NCBI GenBank assembly: GCA_015501585.1
Contig: JADNRY010000010.1
Coordinates: 248,001-312,000, forward strand
Direction of reading: 5' to 3'
DNA: 64,000 nucleotides
DNA from: Rhodocollybia butyracea
Lineage: Eukaryota > Basidiomycota > Agaricomycetes > Agaricales > Omphalotaceae
A program made the translations under genes and the position numbers. The notes below the pieces were generated by a model. It had not been told where the DNA came from. It made no database searches and saw only the letters and a list, made by a program, of their open reading frames with translations. Positions within the stretch are counted from its first letter, which is position 1; each line of letters begins with the position of its first letter. Of the stretch, positions 47,952 through 55,971 are shown in pieces.

Positions 47952-50284
47952 TTATCTGTATATGATAAGAACTCTCCCATTTTGTCCTTCGCTGATCAAC
48001 GACAACCACTCTTCAAGCAGAGGCCATCCCGCTTCAAACCTGACAGCCAATTCGTCCGTATGGTGCTCGCCGTCTAGTAACTCCAGGAGTTCCATTGGGT
48101 ACGACAATGGAACTGCCGCCACTTTTGCGGCCATCCCATTGTACGTCCGGGTAATTGGAGCGGAAGGTGATCGCTCAAGCTGTGGTCTAGACCCTGAATT
48201 CAGGTTAAGTCGGGGGATATTTGGGGAGTTGGGAGGAACGTCGGTCGTTGTTATCGGAGGGATGAGAGATTGTCTTCGAGGATTTCGTGCAGGGATATTT
48301 TCCTGAGGCTTACTGGCCGTCGTAGTGATGCTCGGAACAGGCACTATTGTTGACACAGAAGACGGGTCTGCATTGAAAATCGAAGTTCGCGGGCTGGCCT
48401 GAGCAGTTCCAGGTGGGCGTGTAAGATTCTGGTCTCGGCTGCGAAGAGATTCAAGGATTCTCTCAGCGGCACTCGATCTACGCGGTCTGATATGGGGCTG
48501 ATCAGGCTCTACAACAGAGGCAGCAGTTTGGTTCATTCTGCCGCGAGGAGTGGGAGGTGCACTGGTTGCTTGCTCGGAGCTGAGTGACGTAGCCGCGAGT
48601 ACAATATGGGCTGTGCGTCCACGCAGGAGATACTGGCCCTGAGGAGAGCTTTCTGGGCTTTGATTGAGTAAAGTCGGCTGGATTCCAGTAAAGGACTTCC
48701 CTCGTTTGCGATTTTGGTTCGGTTGTATGTCAGAGGGAGACTGGGCAAGGGATCTAGAGCCAGGCACGAGAATTGGATATCTATGTACTCTTCGTAGGAA
48801 ACCTGCTTATAGAGTGAGATGAAGGAAGGCATGACAAGTCCACCGAATACTACCTTTGATTACGCCGAAACTAGTAAAACGTCGAACATCGATTCCTAGT
48901 TCTTGAACCTCATATTCTTCCATCCACTCGAGGACTGTACGCCCCGGTTTCATCCGTGAATAGAGGTGCAACAACTTTGGCCAGTCAGGGATAGAAAACC
49001 CTGATGAGGAATTACTTCTAACAGGTATGAAGGAATGAAATATCAAGTTTACCTGGTTTAGTAGAATAAGGACCGCATTCATCCTTGACATGAGCTTCAT
49101 CTGCAAGCCATTGTATGCTTTTCCGAAGAGTGTACATATTCGAGTACTGGAATATATCGATAGTCATAATCACTTGATAGTAGCTTCGAACATATTAGCA
49201 AGTATATAAGCAACTGAGAGCGTACTTACAGCAGATGCGATATTGCTTCCCGGGTTAGTTTGATATCGCAATCAGCCAAATGAGCTATCCTACTAACGTG
49301 GTTGACACCTGTTTAGATAGTTGGATACTGATTTAAAAGATAGCTTCGCGGAACCCCTTGAAACAAAATCACCGTCTATGTATCGACAAACCTACAGATT
49401 GTGAAGCGAATTAGCGGATAATAGAAAGAGTACATACTTTAGCCATCGTTAGGTCCCAGTTATCCTCAATCCGTCGGACCAAATTTATCAACATGATTGG
49501 AACCATCCAGTCCTTAACCTCGGGCGGATTTGGGTAAAATGGGAAAATTTTCAGTTCGATGGAATTGAACTGGTCGATCGAAATTGAAGTTTCAGAGTAC
49601 GAGTTCAAGTCCTCGTATAACTGTTCAATGATCGCGTTCATTGCAGCATGATTTCCAGGTGCTGAGAGAAATCCTGATTCCTCCTGATACGCATGTGGAG
49701 TAAGTAAGGCCCAAGACCAAGAGACATGGATGAGTCCCCACCTCGCAGGAAGCAAGGACACGGCTAATCTTCCGTACGATAGGCTCATAGCAACTCAAAT
49801 CAGCGGTTCTCTCGAAGACGAAGCAGAGATTGAACCGGAAGAAGTTACGTTGGTACTTTCCACCTCTCAATTGTGAAGGCAGTCCAATGATTCTGTGATT
49901 CTTTGTAGAGCAAATAACCAGTCTCCCACACAAGGCAGGGCCAGGGATAACATATTTCGAAATTTCCTCAAAATTGAACAGCGGTGCTTGGTTGTTCGGA
50001 AGTAATCGTTTGCCTTGCGGAGAGCTAAAGCTTCGGGAGCTAGGTCGAAACTCTGTAGGAGACGCAACCGCAGATAGGCTTGAGTTCCTCGAGGCGGTGA
50101 CATGCAGCGGAGGAAGAGAAGGTGAGGGACTGGTTTCTGAAGAGGGAGTGGGCGGAACAGTAGAGTTTGGAATAGACGGAGCAGTAATGAGGCCCTCGGG
50201 AACCTGGCAGATAATCTTGGGACCAGCAGTTAAGTCGAAGCCAGCATAAAAAACTGATTGGATTCTAGGCAGAAAAGTTCCCAT
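47952..50284 (-). CDS. NPR2: Nitrogen permease regulator Npr2/NPRL2 (GATOR1/SEACIT subunit)
   Basis: Subunit of the GAP complex that restrains TORC1 in amino-acid shortage. MGTFLPRIQSVFYAGFDLTAGPKIICQVPEG is the longin-like start, with a Ser/Pro insert, then YVIPGPALCGRLVICSTKNHRIIGLP, RGGKYQRNFFRFNLCFVFE, YEPIVRKISRVLASCE, QLYEDLNSYSETSISID, WDLTMAKVCRYIDG, VNHVSRIAHLADCDIKLTREAI, and GRTVLEWMEEYEVQELGIDVRRFTSFGVIKG. A disordered segment of about 200 residues (Ser/Pro/Arg-rich, 48100-48760) splits this from the family's C-terminal winged-helix block ELLELLDGEHHTDELAVRFE. Other Npr2 proteins are much shorter here. Several introns. Confidence 0.92.
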
Positions 50285-50401
50285 TAAAGCTGCGTTAGCG
50301 CCGGATTATGCCTGTAAGCGCCCATTCCTCGCCTGTGTTTCTTCTCAACGGATATTTAGCAGGTTTGTCTTGGGTTTGTCCCAACAGATCGGTCAACTTC
50401 T

Positions 50402-51754
50402 ATGACCAGTCTTCCACCAGGTTTTTACGCACTTCCTCTACCCATTCTTCAACTTTCGTTGGCTGCTGTTCTAAAATGTGGTCAATCTTTTCGTTGGTCC
50501 GCTTATCCTCTGCAGGTCAAATCCGAAGACCCGTCTATGCCAACTCACGAATATCGCTTCTGTCTTCGTGACCGTGTGGTTTGTCTTCGTCAGACCCCAA
50601 CCGATATCTTGTATCGCACAGCGTTACCAGAACCCCAGCCAAGTGCTACTCAACAAAAGCTACACGAAGCAGAAACGCTATTGTGGTTGAAAGACTATTT
50701 CCAACTTGCCATAGATCTTAAATTACTTTACAATGACTGGGGTTCTCGGGATAAAGTATTCCTGAGTATCAAAGAGAGATTCAGTGGAATCAGGATGCTA
50801 AGGCAGGACCCCTGGGAAACCCTTATTTCGTACGTTCCTGGTATCTATAGCCAGATATAGCTAAAATGAAGGCCCAGATTCATCTGCTCTTCAAACAACA
50901 ATATATCCCGTATCACAAAAATGGTGCAAAACTTATCCAAAGAATATTCACCTCCGCTTCTCTCTCTTCCTGTTCCGGATGGATCAGGCATTGAAGAAAC
51001 GTACCATCCATTTCCTCCTCCCTCGGCCTTGGCTAAACCGGATGTCAGCTCACGTCTACGTTCTCTTGGGTTTGGTTATCGTGCTGAGTTCATTCACCAA
51101 ACTGCCAAGATGCTCGTGGATTCTCACCATGGTGGTAAAACACATCCGCAAGAGTCAAGCGAGCCCTCCGAATTGTGGCTTCTCACACTTCGAGGTTATA
51201 CCACGGAAAATGCTCGTACGGAACTCCTCACATTTCGAGGGGTCGGACGTAAAGTGTCCGACTGTATTCTCCTCATGTCTCTTGACAAGGTATGGCTACC
51301 ACCGGTCGAGCAAAGTGTCTCCGGTCCTCATTGCACTTAGACAGATGTTGTCCCGGTTGACACACATGTCCATCAAATCGCAATCAAGCACTATGGTATG
51401 AAGGGTTCTGCCAAAGGAAAGACGAACATGACGCCCAAGCTTTATGAGGAAGTTTGCACAAAGTTTGTACAGGTATGGGGACAGTATGCAGGATGGGCTC
51501 ATTCGGTAAGCTTGATACTAGCCTTGAGGCAATCCACTGAAGTTTTTCCTCAGGTACTTTTCACCTCCGATTTGAAATCTTTTGCGCTACATGGATTACC
51601 GGAAGCATCAGATCCTCCTACCATTCAGAAAGGTCGGAACAAGCGAGAGCGTGACCAAGATGAGATTACGGCGACCACAAATGCGGAAGGCTCTGCCAGC
51701 CCGGCGGAACGCGTAAAGAAAAGGGCTCGAAAGCGAAGAACAAGTCCTGAATGA
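50402..51754 (+). CDS. OGG1: 8-oxoguanine DNA glycosylase Ogg1
   Basis: Bifunctional glycosylase/AP-lyase that removes 8-oxoguanine opposite C. MTSLPPGFYALPLPILQLSLAAVLKCGQSFRW carries the N-terminal FRW block. The HhH-GPD core follows: IRMLRQDPWETLIS, FICSSNNNISRITKMVQNLSKEY, SRLRSLGFGYRAEFI, and GVGRKVSDCILLMSLDK with the catalytic Lys, then TDVVPVDTHVHQIAIKHYG with the catalytic Asp. The C-terminus (KRERDQDE ... RVKKRARKRRTSPE) is a basic nuclear signal. Three introns at about 50831-50879, 51290-51342 and 51506-51553. The start lies 117 bp from divergent NPR2. Confidence 0.94.
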
Positions 51755-52172
51755 TGTGTATGTCTCTTTTACTTCACCGTCTTTCTTGGCCATTGTCTAA
51801 GGTACCGAGTCAGAGCTGTATCTTGAATGACAATGATACGTGCCTTTTTCCATATTTGAGGGCGTGATTGCTCGTTTTTTCATAGGCATCACTCGAACGG
51901 AACAAAGTGTCACTGAGTGCCAAGGATGTTCCTGGGTGGATAAAGCAGGCTTCTAGTTATTGGCGTCATATTCAGGAGCGCGAAATTAGCGGAATATTCA
52001 ATAAAGAGGAACAAATGTACGGCATCCAAGATTTTTGGATGCACTCAAAGTGCCTGACTGTCGACTCTCCCAAGATCTTGTAATGTTTGAATCTCTGACA
52101 AATTCCAGGGGCCGTCCACTTATAAGGACGTGTTTGCAAGCACTACTGCCCCAACATCCTGCATATACCATA
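51755..52172. other. Intergenic, tandem
   Basis: Between OGG1 and the repeat-peptide gene. A plus-strand open stretch at 52035-52172 is likely 5' untranslated sequence; no gene seen. Confidence 0.45.
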
Positions 52173-52593
52173 ATGCGTCCTCAAATATTCTTATCCATTC
52201 TTTTTTCCGCTGTTGCTGTTGTACATGCACTCACGATTGAAGTGGTATGTTACTGCTCTCTAGGGTCTGAGCAGCGCTCATTATTATTTTTTTCCAGCGT
52301 TCAGATGATCTAGTTGCTCGAGGAGAATCGTTGGAAGCCAGCGAGCTCGAGATCGAAGTAAGCTTCAATTTTGTTCCGCTATTGACGAGTACTGAGTGCT
52401 AATGATCTGTTGCAGGTTTATGAACCCAGTCCTCCGGACTGGAAGCGAGAGCCTGAGCCCTACCGCGCCGATTGGAAACGAGGGCCTGAGACGGCCTGGA
52501 GCGCCTGACTACCGCGCCGACTGGAAGCGAGGGCCTGAGCCCTACCGCGCCGACTGGAAGCGAGAGCCTGAGCCCTACCGTGCCGACTGGTGA
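52173..52593 (+). CDS. Secreted precursor with Lys-Arg-delimited repeat peptides (alpha-factor-like KEP)
   Basis: Exon 1 (52173-52244) encodes a signal peptide (MRPQIFLSILFSAVAVVHA) and LTIEV. Exon 2 (52298-52357) encodes an acidic propeptide (RSDDLVARGESLEASELEIE). Exon 3 (from 52416) holds repeats: KR sites at 52443-52448 and 52476-52481, and in a shifted frame 52525-52530 and 52558-52563. The core YRADW is encoded at 52461-52475, 52510-52524, 52543-52557 and 52576-52590, preceded by EPEP or GPEP. Kex2 would cut after KR, and a Ste13-type dipeptidase would remove the X-Pro pairs, leaving YRADW. The frame breaks near 52491-52506: frame 1 stops at 52508, while the rest is open to 52593. Not a CaaX pheromone. 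No homologue was recognised by name. Confidence 0.72.
52437..52590 (+). repeat. 33-base in-gene tandem repeat
   Basis: Units of the form GAC TGG AAG CGA (G/G)AG CCT GAG CCC TAC CGC GCC, that is 11 codons (DWKR-EPEPYRA). Copies begin at 52437, 52470, 52519 and 52552, with a terminal GAC TGG before the stop. The copy beginning at 52470 is damaged: 16 extra bases relative to the 33-base unit, which contain a partial GCC-TGG-A-GCG resembling another DWKR. Confidence 0.85.
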
Positions 52594-53229
52594 AGCGAAA
52601 CACTACTAGCTGGGATTTACCATACCACTGCGATGAACGCTGCAGTAGTACGATCTTGTTGGACGCTCGACTCTATATGTGCAGTCTTGTTAGCCATCCC
52701 CTCGTACCTTTTTTGCTTGCTGGCCGGGCTTGCCTGTACTACATTCATTTCTTTACCTTTAACTTCACGAGTTTATTATAATACTGTAATAATAGATATT
52801 TGCGTGCTGTTATGTTACTTGCTATCTATCTGTCTGCTCGGCGCAGACGTAGACGAGCATGGATCACACAGACGTCGGACCCGACGCAATCTAGCTGCAC
52901 TCTGGCGAGAACTGTAAATCTGTAATTGACTTTTGCGTTGAGAAGCCTAAAGAGCGTACGCGCGATACACGAGGGCTTCTCTGTCCAAATTGGCGTCGTG
53001 TTGATTAATCATTAGGGTTGGACATGGCAGTCCATGTTCCCTGGATAGAAGCCAAACCAGATTTGCATCAGGTCAACTGACGAAAGAAGCTCAAGCGGTA
53101 CCGATGGCCACATACTAAAGTGTCGCTATGCCAATATTGCTTTGGATCCCTACAGATTTCTACGCGTACAAAGTACTTGACCGAATGATCTCTAAAATAC
53201 ATACACGGCAATTCGCTCATTCATTTCAT
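52594..53229. other. Intergenic, convergent
   Basis: Downstream of the repeat-peptide gene. A 94-codon plus frame at 52633-52917 is hydrophobic but starts inside the probable 3' untranslated region and has no support. No other gene seen. Confidence 0.45.
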
Positions 53230-53606
53230 TTACTTCTGCCATTGCAATTCACCCATTTCCTGCTTCTTCCGTCCTGCCTGTCCGTCATGCCTTAGCTCTT
53301 TAGAAGTCATACCAGAACCTGGCTTTCCAAGCGAGTTGTCCACATCCGCAGAAGATGCACCGTTTAGAGTCTGAGCAGCGGATGTGTGTAGTTCAGAGCT
53401 ATGTTCAGTGTTTGGTAGCGAAGCGTCTTTGTCGACGACTGTGTCGAGGGTAACAGGGGCACGTTCGGGTTGTTGACCTGAGAAAAAACACTTGAGTATT
53501 TTCCTACCACAGAAAGACATTATTTACCCTCTGGTCGACCATCGACAATGCCCTGATTAGTTTGCTCAACAGTGCGAGCGTAGTTTTGTTGGTTGAGTCC
53601 AGACAT
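53230..53606 (-). CDS. Small hydrophilic protein, unknown
   Basis: Two exons. The first encodes MSGLNQQNYARTVEQTNQG and IVDGRPEG; a GT-AG intron (53471-53526) joins it in frame to QQPERAPVTLDTVVDKDASLP, and the protein ends GSGMTSKELRHDGQAGRKKQEMGELQWQK, about 107 residues. It has no Cys beyond chance, no membrane span and is rich in Gln, Asn, Ser, Asp and Lys, so it is probably disordered. Such proteins are often stress-induced (hydrophilin-like), but no named family was recognised. A clean splice junction and good start context support it as real. Confidence 0.65.
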
Positions 53607-53824
53607 AATGAAGCGTGAGTGAATGTACATCCTCTCCCACCCGGGGCTTTATATTGGGAGGAGAGGTAAGATATGACATCTTTCTTACCTTCTGCTGAAG
53701 TCATAAACTCATTCATGACGCAAACGCCCCACCCTCGCTGGTTGGATTGATCTAAACACATCACTCACTTGTCGGACCGTATATGGAGTACATGATATTC
53801 CACAATATACCTACATACCTCAAA

Positions 53825-55826
53825 TCAAACCATAACAACACCAATGCCTCTTCCTACGGGAACACCATTCTCGGCCTTCAGTCCTGCTAATGGCGCTGTC
53901 CTCCAGTTATATAGATAAAAGTTGAGAAACCCATTGCCGGTGGCAAACTTGAGGTTCATGAGTTTTTTCGAGAGAGACAGAAGATATTGAATGATTGGCT
54001 TACTCGTAATTCCCTCAAGAAAAGTTCATTATCCATCATTGTCAGTGCATTAAAGACGTCGAATTTTGCGTTATTGGCAACAATTAACGCATCGCCTATC
54101 AATGCTTGCAGCCGCTCCTTCAAAGCGCCGTTTGCGTCTGCGTTTTCGGTGAATGCGATGTCCGAGGCATAGTAATGGAGGTAGGCCGCTTCGAGCATCG
54201 CATGTTTAGAATGGTTGATGACGGTTGAAGGGAGGGAGTAGAACGACACGAAGTCGGTGATCTTGTGAGTATCTTTGTTCTGATTACCCGTTAAATCTAA
54301 ATTCAGAAGTAAAAGCGAGAGTTACGAACTTCGACCACATACGCCCAAACAACCTGACCGTTGTGTCTCCATTTGTCTCCAGTACCGGCCTTCCCGCTAC
54401 CACTCAGGAATTGATGCTTAATTTCCTGCGCAGTCATGACTGGAACCATATCGAACCGCTGCATATATTTGGTATAGAGCTCAGTAATCTGTGGAACGTC
54501 TTTTTCTGTCATTTCGCGGATTCCAGGTATTTGGAGTTTGCTCTGTAACTGGTTGACACGAATCATCCGAGCCAAAGTCATGTTCCTAGGGACAAATGAG
54601 AACTGAATCTCGACCAATTTGCTGACGTTGAGATTCCGGTGTTGATATCTAGACACGTGCATGAGCCTACAGTACGACGAGAAACGGGTGCGCCTCACTG
54701 TGTTGTTGAGACTGGAGTGGGTACTACTACCCCGGCAGTGTATATAGCTTGGAAGATGCCTTTTAGATGGATTTGTCGAGTAACTTCCTTGATCAAGACT
54801 GGTGCTAGACGCTTGGAACGCAACTTCTTGTGAACACAGAGATAGTTGATTTCTGCCGACATGAAAGAGCTGCGAGGAAGGGATTGTGGATCTGAGCGAA
54901 AATATTATCGATATCCAGGATCACGCACTGTTTCCGGACGCGAAGAAGCATAGGGACTCCCGAGATGAATCCAACAAGTTTCTTGTTTGATTTGACGCGT
55001 ACACCGACGTGCCATTCTTTGCTATAACCAGGGACTTGAAGAGCCCTAAGATCAAGAGGATTAGATATCCGATACAACCAAACATAGAAGTTCCACTCAC
55101 CACTGTAAGAATTCCGCACTGTATTTGAATCGGAACGTGGCATCATCGTCCTCGACGTAGTTGTGAGATAGAAGCTCATAGACTTCGACAACCTGCAGAC
55201 AAGAATTGATAGAGAACGTCTCTGGTTACAAATTGAAATACCTGCTGAGGATCATTGATATCTATCAACGTCCACTCAAAATCTTTTGGAAGTGGATAAG
55301 GCTCCTGACGAACTTCTTCTGCAGGCTTTGAGGGTTCTATATAGCCGTCGGCTTCTGGAGGTCCTTCCCCCATCTGCGGAACAGGTTGTGTTGACCAGAA
55401 CTTATGGACGAGTAAGCTTAGAGTCTGGATGAGTATGCGACGCCTAACCTTATGTTCTCCCATATCCTTCTTGTTTATCCCTCCGACACCAGCTTTACCC
55501 TTCACAACGTCCATGATCTTCATATGCTCCAACGCTTGGCGTACATTTTCCGCATTCGCCTCCTCGCTTCCTGCACCTCCCTCGGCCTTTACAGTATCGA
55601 GAACCTGGTTGACGAGTGCTTGTGGAATAGACCTTCCAGTCAGTGCACTGAGTGCTTTAGCAGCTTTGGATCTCTTCTTCTTCTTTTTCTTGGACGAAGT
55701 AGATGATGAAGGCTCTTGTTGAGCCTGCGCGTCGTCGTCGTGTTCTTCGACGTCCGAGTCATCATGAGCATCGGAATCTTGTGTGGTATCTATGATCTCT
55801 TCAATCTTGGACGTTAGACCCGACAT
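53825..55826 (-). CDS. NMT1: Glycylpeptide N-tetradecanoyltransferase (N-myristoyltransferase)
   Basis: Transfers myristate from myristoyl-CoA to N-terminal Gly of proteins. The start [19 protein letters not shown] at 55826 was preferred to an ATG 11 codons upstream. An acidic and a Lys-rich N-terminus ([15 protein letters not shown]) precede [105 protein letters not shown] (myristoyl-CoA site), [27 protein letters not shown] and the peptide-binding second half ([25 protein letters not shown]), ending [14 protein letters not shown]. About seven introns. Confidence 0.95.
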
Positions 55827-55971
55827 TTTTAGATGCAAAGTACTATGAAAATAATTCAAAATCTATGGGCGGCAACCATTGTCTTGCGTAATCTCCTTGA
55901 TAAGATATGATTACAGATCTATATCCATGTAGTATGTACAAGCGTGTTATGGTGTATGAACGACCAAGATA

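Follow-up and report, generated by a model that had tools for sequence, protein, structure and literature searches.

The window, meaning the whole 64,000-nucleotide stretch of Rhodocollybia butyracea DNA analyzed here, probably carries an Agaricomycete '-ADW' gene for a kexin-processed repeat protein (KEP) with a STE13-type X-Pro spacer. As assembled, the reading frame of this gene is broken past its first YRADW unit, leaving one complete core at most. The kind of gene is itself known: Agaricomycete KEPs bearing STE13 signatures (Le Marquer et al., 2019, PMC6339444) and KEP peptides that end in -ADW (Vogt et al., 2022, PMC9769878) have already been published. What appears new against the literature searched is the YRADW core, along with the presence within a single genome of three -ADW precursors that differ in build.

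The gene lies on the + strand of contig C2, in the interval between an OGG1-type 8-oxoguanine DNA glycosylase gene upstream (50360..51754, + strand; OGG_N domain in 50360-50857, with the extent to 51754 suggested by open frames) and an N-myristoyltransferase (NMT) gene downstream (54306..55862, - strand). A TATA-box-like site, TATAAG (52121..52126, + strand), begins 52 bases before the ATG and would be a promoter element judging from its sequence. Exon 1 (52173..52244, + strand) starts with the ATG at 52173 and encodes the signal-like leader MRPQIFLSILFSAVAVVHA followed by LTIEV; the leader is hydrophobic, with an 11-residue hydropathy of up to 2.68, and an N-terminal signal peptide of the kind that characterizes KEPs is predicted as judged by composition and hydropathy. 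Exon 2 (52298..52357, + strand) encodes the acidic pro-region RSDDLVARGESLEASELEIE. The two predicted introns, both on the + strand, are of phase 0 with canonical GT...AG ends: intron 1 spans 53 bp (52245..52297), and intron 2, which contains a GCTAAT branch-like site, spans 58 bp (52358..52415). Intron style, together with the relatives described below, fits a basidiomycete. Exon 3 reads VYEPSPPDW-KR-EPEPYRADW-KR-GPETAWSA-stop in the frame of the leader (52416..52508, + strand). The signal-like leader, the acidic propeptide and a predicted three-exon structure, as proposed in the initial annotation, are all found in the sequence. Further downstream, within 55871-55924 and just past the end of the NMT reading frame that encodes the N-terminus, a stretch of 40-50 bases resembles contigs C1104, C839 and C1116 at 87-93%.

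The repeat array is real and exceeds chance. It ranks first among the tandem repeats of the window with a TRF score of 150, against 51 for the runner-up and 66 for the best score obtained over 50 dinucleotide shuffles of the whole window. When both frames are pooled at the DNA level, the array comprises one PPDW unit and four YRADW units, separated by KR; RADW ends four of the five units, the first unit ends in PPDW, and the final unit lacks KR. The GAYTGG sites lie at 52437, 52470, 52519, 52552 and 52585, with spacings of 33, 49, 33 and 33 nt. The three regular units differ from one another at four codons. The changes are silent at three of these (GAC/GAT, AAG/AAA and CGC/CGT) and amount to an E/G exchange in the spacer at the fourth, a pattern that supports the coding nature of the array. 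In these regular units the X-Pro spacer is EPEP or GPEP, which places XP pairs directly after the Kex2 site.

The interruption falls in an irregular 49-nt unit (52482..52530, + strand; regular spacing 33 nt), which contains the irregular stretch GGCCTGAGACGGCCTGGAGCGCCTGAC of GGCCTG-like words and is 16 nt longer than a regular unit. Its spacer reads GPE in the leader frame and PGAP in the second frame. The leader frame passes through the PPDW unit and one YRADW unit and then stops at 52506-52508, while the remaining three YRADW units, up to 52593, can be read in another frame only. This second frame (52507..52593, + strand), DYRADW-KR-GPEPYRADW-KR-EPEPYRADW-stop, is out of reach from the leader frame. 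The repeated KR sites with EPEP or GPEP and YRADW cores that were annotated originally are thus present as motifs, but they do not share one frame, and the single open multi-copy frame that was assumed ends after one YRADW. Near-identical peptides repeated between KR, RR or KK are found at the DNA level with both frames counted, and the assembled leader frame holds one complete unit, whereas the 2019 survey set its threshold at three or more repeats per KEP protein (PMC6339444). The gene would hence be a KEP by descent whose assembled protein would fail such a survey, as only one complete unit precedes the stop. A search of the whole genome for the two-unit pattern W-KR...DW-KR matched three times at the window locus and once at a locus on contig C495, with no match for the backward control. 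The one match of a further pattern on contig C628 codes for DWKSG and was rejected as being at chance level, the backward control also giving one match.

The origin of the break may lie in the assembly or in the organism: an assembly error or mixed allele and a real allele that is damaged or of variant length are judged about equally likely. That two alleles of different repeat length in a dikaryon were collapsed or mixed into one consensus at this locus is quite possible, if short of probable. Short tandem repeats are error-prone, and other regions of the genome are present as near-identical second copies, including the DPP IV region (99.4% over 4 kb) and two duplicated UstYa regions (main pieces 98.2-99.6%, one 530-bp piece 93.6%). 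By contrast, the NMT neighbor is single and a separate second haplotype of the region was not found; a 421-bp DNA query of the locus matches itself only in the genome. A 10-kb DNA query had three of its four candidates scored, and the window itself is absent from its matches, so this query carries no weight. Speaking against a collapse, the two sister KEP arrays, on contigs C495 and C939, are intact in the same assembly. This very contrast, with sister genes open through 10 and 7 units, favors instead a decayed KEP pseudogene, in which an actual insertion within the third unit put the units downstream of it out of frame and left them as relics. The nature of the break points the same way, since an irregular stretch of GGCCTG-like words adding 16 nt is more than one homopolymer base. 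Decay is nonetheless a tentative proposal: the units on both sides of the break have near-identical cores, the regular units differing by silent changes and the one E/G spacer exchange, and no damage is apparent in the ATG, the leader or the splice sites. Any decay would therefore have to be recent.

It is highly improbable that the leader and the second frame are brought together by alternative splice sites, an arrangement by which one gene would yield either a one-core or a three-core precursor. Open products of this kind can be constructed, among others by combining the intron-2 donor at 52358 with an acceptor at 52449 (92-nt intron) or 52482 (125-nt intron), or the natural acceptor at 52415 with weak donors at 52330 (GTTGGA), 52345 or 52378 (GC donors), and these five predicted products keep RR-PGAPDYRADW-KR-GPEPYRADW-KR-EPEPYRADW. 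However, the acceptors at 52449 (CGGACTGGAAGCGAG) and 52482 (CCGATTGGAAACGAG) have no pyrimidine tract, the donors at 52330, 52345 and 52378 are poor, and all five products drop the YRADW unit of the leader frame. An enumeration with intron 1 kept gave 44 GT/GC-AG combinations with an open frame, hence an open frame alone is no evidence, and none of the 44 combines a good donor with a good acceptor by eye. Splicing was accordingly rejected as a way around the break.

The initial annotation called for a search for relatives in which KR repeats surround differing cores, and such relatives do occur. Two are encoded in the same genome: contig C495 carries 10 copies of SGTGESSAADW separated by RR or KR and open to the stop (448109-448687), and contig C939 carries seven copies of AGTGESSGADW, likewise open to the stop (92056-92474). 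In each of the two, a first exon encoding a signal-like leader precedes an intron of phase 0. The C495 core and the shiitake peptide SGTGEASAADW are identical at 10 of their 11 residues, and a metagenome protein (P0001) contains three SGTGDSSAADW units. In a genome search the window repeat ORF and the C495 exon did not find each other, and a blastn comparison of window positions 50001-54000 with the C495 and C939 loci gave no similarity. The case for common descent of the three genes therefore depends on their shared -ADW end and similar layout. Of the three, the window gene is the one with STE13-type spacers; the C495 and C939 precursors would apparently be cut by kexin alone.

A weaker candidate relative is found outside the genus. 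Searches with the 74-residue protein alone gave no relatives, and no candidate had three words in common with it. The profile built from the window's pieces matched a single protein among 619 candidates with E up to 10, namely F5147DRAFT_713265 (P0003) of Suillus discolor (Boletales), at a whole-database E of 0.4. This protein has a hydrophobic leader followed by LPTPPDWKR-APQPTADWKR, to be compared with P-S-PPDWKR and EPEPYRADWKR in the window gene; it differs from the latter in its TADW core and in having fewer units. The pairwise E value of 6e-9 was computed after P0003 had been selected. LVAR occurs in both P0003 and the window protein, but the two occurrences are aligned by neither BLASTP nor MAFFT. 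Although the E value of 0.4 lacks significance by itself, a relationship appears credible because both sequences run in the same way from a leader through P-x-PPDWKR and two X-P pairs to ADWKR. Two other leads were dropped: protein P0002 has scattered DWRR words and no KEP layout, and two matches on contig C517 lie in a different, FNST-rich repeat.

Peptides of this type have been described from several mushrooms. Mass spectrometry found SGTGEASAADW in shiitake fruiting bodies and SGVAADW forms in two oyster mushrooms, the precursors of the latter having STE13 motifs, and the common -AADW end of the shiitake and Pleurotus peptides was pointed out in the same study (Vogt et al., 2022, PMC9769878). 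The -AADW peptides also appear in a review (PMC10417677). Homologs of the shiitake KEP were reported from Gymnopus, Rhodocollybia and a species of Auriculariales (PMC9769878). The shiitake precursor, Lentinula edodes KEP 2599, contains seven copies of SGTGEASAADW (PMC9769878) and resembles the window gene in being a multi-copy Kex2 precursor with an -ADW end; the C495 and C939 cores are close to it, whereas the window gene has a different core from this 11-residue one and a different spacer. Pleurotus ostreatus KEP 1091723 and P. eryngii KEP 1439342 share Kex2 sites, STE13 spacers and an -ADW core with the window gene, and their peptides were detected in fruiting bodies; compared by description, their cores are [M/L]SGVAADW or SGVAADW rather than YRADW (PMC9769878). 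The relevant passage of that paper names STE13 motifs for the Pleurotus KEPs alone, and none are seen in C495 or C939. Another group comprises the basidiomycete KEPs that carry STE13 signatures and have XSDW as the repeated motif (PMC6339444). They occur in one ectomycorrhizal species and in saprotrophs and share the conserved -DW repeat; again compared by description, they have Ser before DW where the window gene has Ala. The letter string YRADW itself occurs in six papers, none of them on fungi judging by title, in a search of paper texts outside the supplementary tables of the KEP surveys, and the literature on mushroom peptide hormones offered nothing closer among the matches listed.

The alpha-factor-like layout proposed at the outset stands, in that a signal-like leader, an acidic pro-region, KR sites, X-Pro dipeptides and a short core are accompanied by kexin and DPP IV-like genes in the genome. 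Ascomycete alpha-factor precursors share this architecture and the predicted Kex2, Kex1 and Ste13 processing; they differ in their core and belong to another phylum. In the 95.6-Mb assembly of 1381 contigs, a kexin gene with S8 and P domains lies on contig C1 and gives the sole P-domain match of the genome. At this locus (around 267644-267925) the kexin is encoded in a single open stretch of 835 residues, intron-free there. Coprinopsis, for comparison, has three KEX2 genes, and KEP peptides are still present in its kex knockouts (PMC9769878), so the processing test in kex2-deficient strains suggested in the initial annotation could give a misleading answer. A DPP IV-like gene is found on contig C688, with a 99.4% identical second copy on C950; the match covers the N-terminal domain only, and the family search also matches bacterial and archaeal control genomes. 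Regions of contigs C688/C950 and C921/C1161 are present in two copies at about 98-99.6% identity (530-bp piece 93.6%), and the assembly seems to be partly two-haplotype.

In a working form of the gene, the precursor would enter the secretory pathway, with its leader presumably removed by signal peptidase. Kexin would then cleave after each KR, a Kex1-type carboxypeptidase would strip the KR, and a DPP IV/Ste13-type peptidase would take off EP-EP or GP-EP. The Pleurotus relatives are thought to be processed by the same kexin/Ste13-type route (PMC9769878). The expected product is the linear pentapeptide YRADW, or EPEPYRADW under incomplete trimming, which may serve as an extracellular signal, addressed either to the producing fungus or to other species. 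The predicted [M+H]+ values are 710.326 for YRADW, 1162.516 for EPEPYRADW and 1090.495 for GPEPYRADW, and 1067.428 and 1037.417 for the two sister peptides.

The initial annotation had also raised the prospect of a modification of Tyr or Trp. A dikaritin-type peptide cyclized by UstYa through the Tyr of the core could be considered, given that the genome has at least 18 UstYa-family (DUF3328) matches over the cut-off, on at least 11 contigs (for example C431, C1160, C517, C305, C827 and C921), with each exon counted separately and some of the regions duplicated; as search counts these numbers are lower bounds. In a survey of 7878 KEPs, 76 were related to six putative basidiomycete alpha-type precursors, and 17 of these 76 have a DUF3328 gene nearby (Umemura, 2020, PMC7329392). 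Such an origin for the window peptide nevertheless has very little probability. None of the at least 18 listed matches lies on contig C2, and a Pfam scan of the window gave no UstYa among 47 distinct ORFs (170 listed); the ORFs nearest the gene with a Pfam match encode OGG1, NMT, UFD1, CCT, NPR2, a ThiF-domain protein and a sirohaem protein. STE13 signatures are moreover described as absent from cyclic-tetrapeptide precursors (PMC6339444). A dikaritin cluster at the locus was rejected on the absence of C2 from the listed UstYa matches, and the proposed Tyr/Trp modification loses its support with it. Dikaritin-type clusters elsewhere in the genome are possible.

A mating role is not expected for the -ADW peptide, because basidiomycete mating pheromones are of the a-type (PMC6339444, PMC9769878). 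The locus was also rejected as a basidiomycete lipopeptide pheromone gene: its frames end in AWSA and RADW with no CaaX, and a signal-like leader is present. A search for STE2 (PF02116) gave no match in the genome, but none in any of the 14 control genomes either, so this silence carries no information. In Coprinopsis, axenic cultures of six kep knockouts looked normal, and the synthetic KEP peptides tested did not inhibit bacteria (PMC9769878).

Our preferred reading of the -ADW peptide, offered as a guess, is an extracellular signal recognized through its C-terminal -ADW. The -ADW precursors of this genome, at least three in number, are separately built, with different leaders, spacers and copy numbers, and their predicted products have only the C-terminal -ADW in common. 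When the TADW core of Suillus, the XSDW repeats and the -AADW peptides known from shiitake and Pleurotus are considered as well, the three cores raise the speculative and rather unlikely idea that -(A/S)DW at a free C-terminus is the recognized part of a mushroom-wide family of peptide signals, of which YRADW would be the smallest member. The window gene also serves as a caution: assemblies can break KEP genes with short tandem repeats or get their unit number wrong, and surveys requiring an open multi-repeat protein may for this reason miss some KEPs. With its three -ADW precursors, this genome provides defined synthetic peptides and masses with which receptors or interactions could be screened. 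Since the three are built differently, the conserved C-terminal ADW can be told apart from features that vary, namely length, N-terminus and trimming route.
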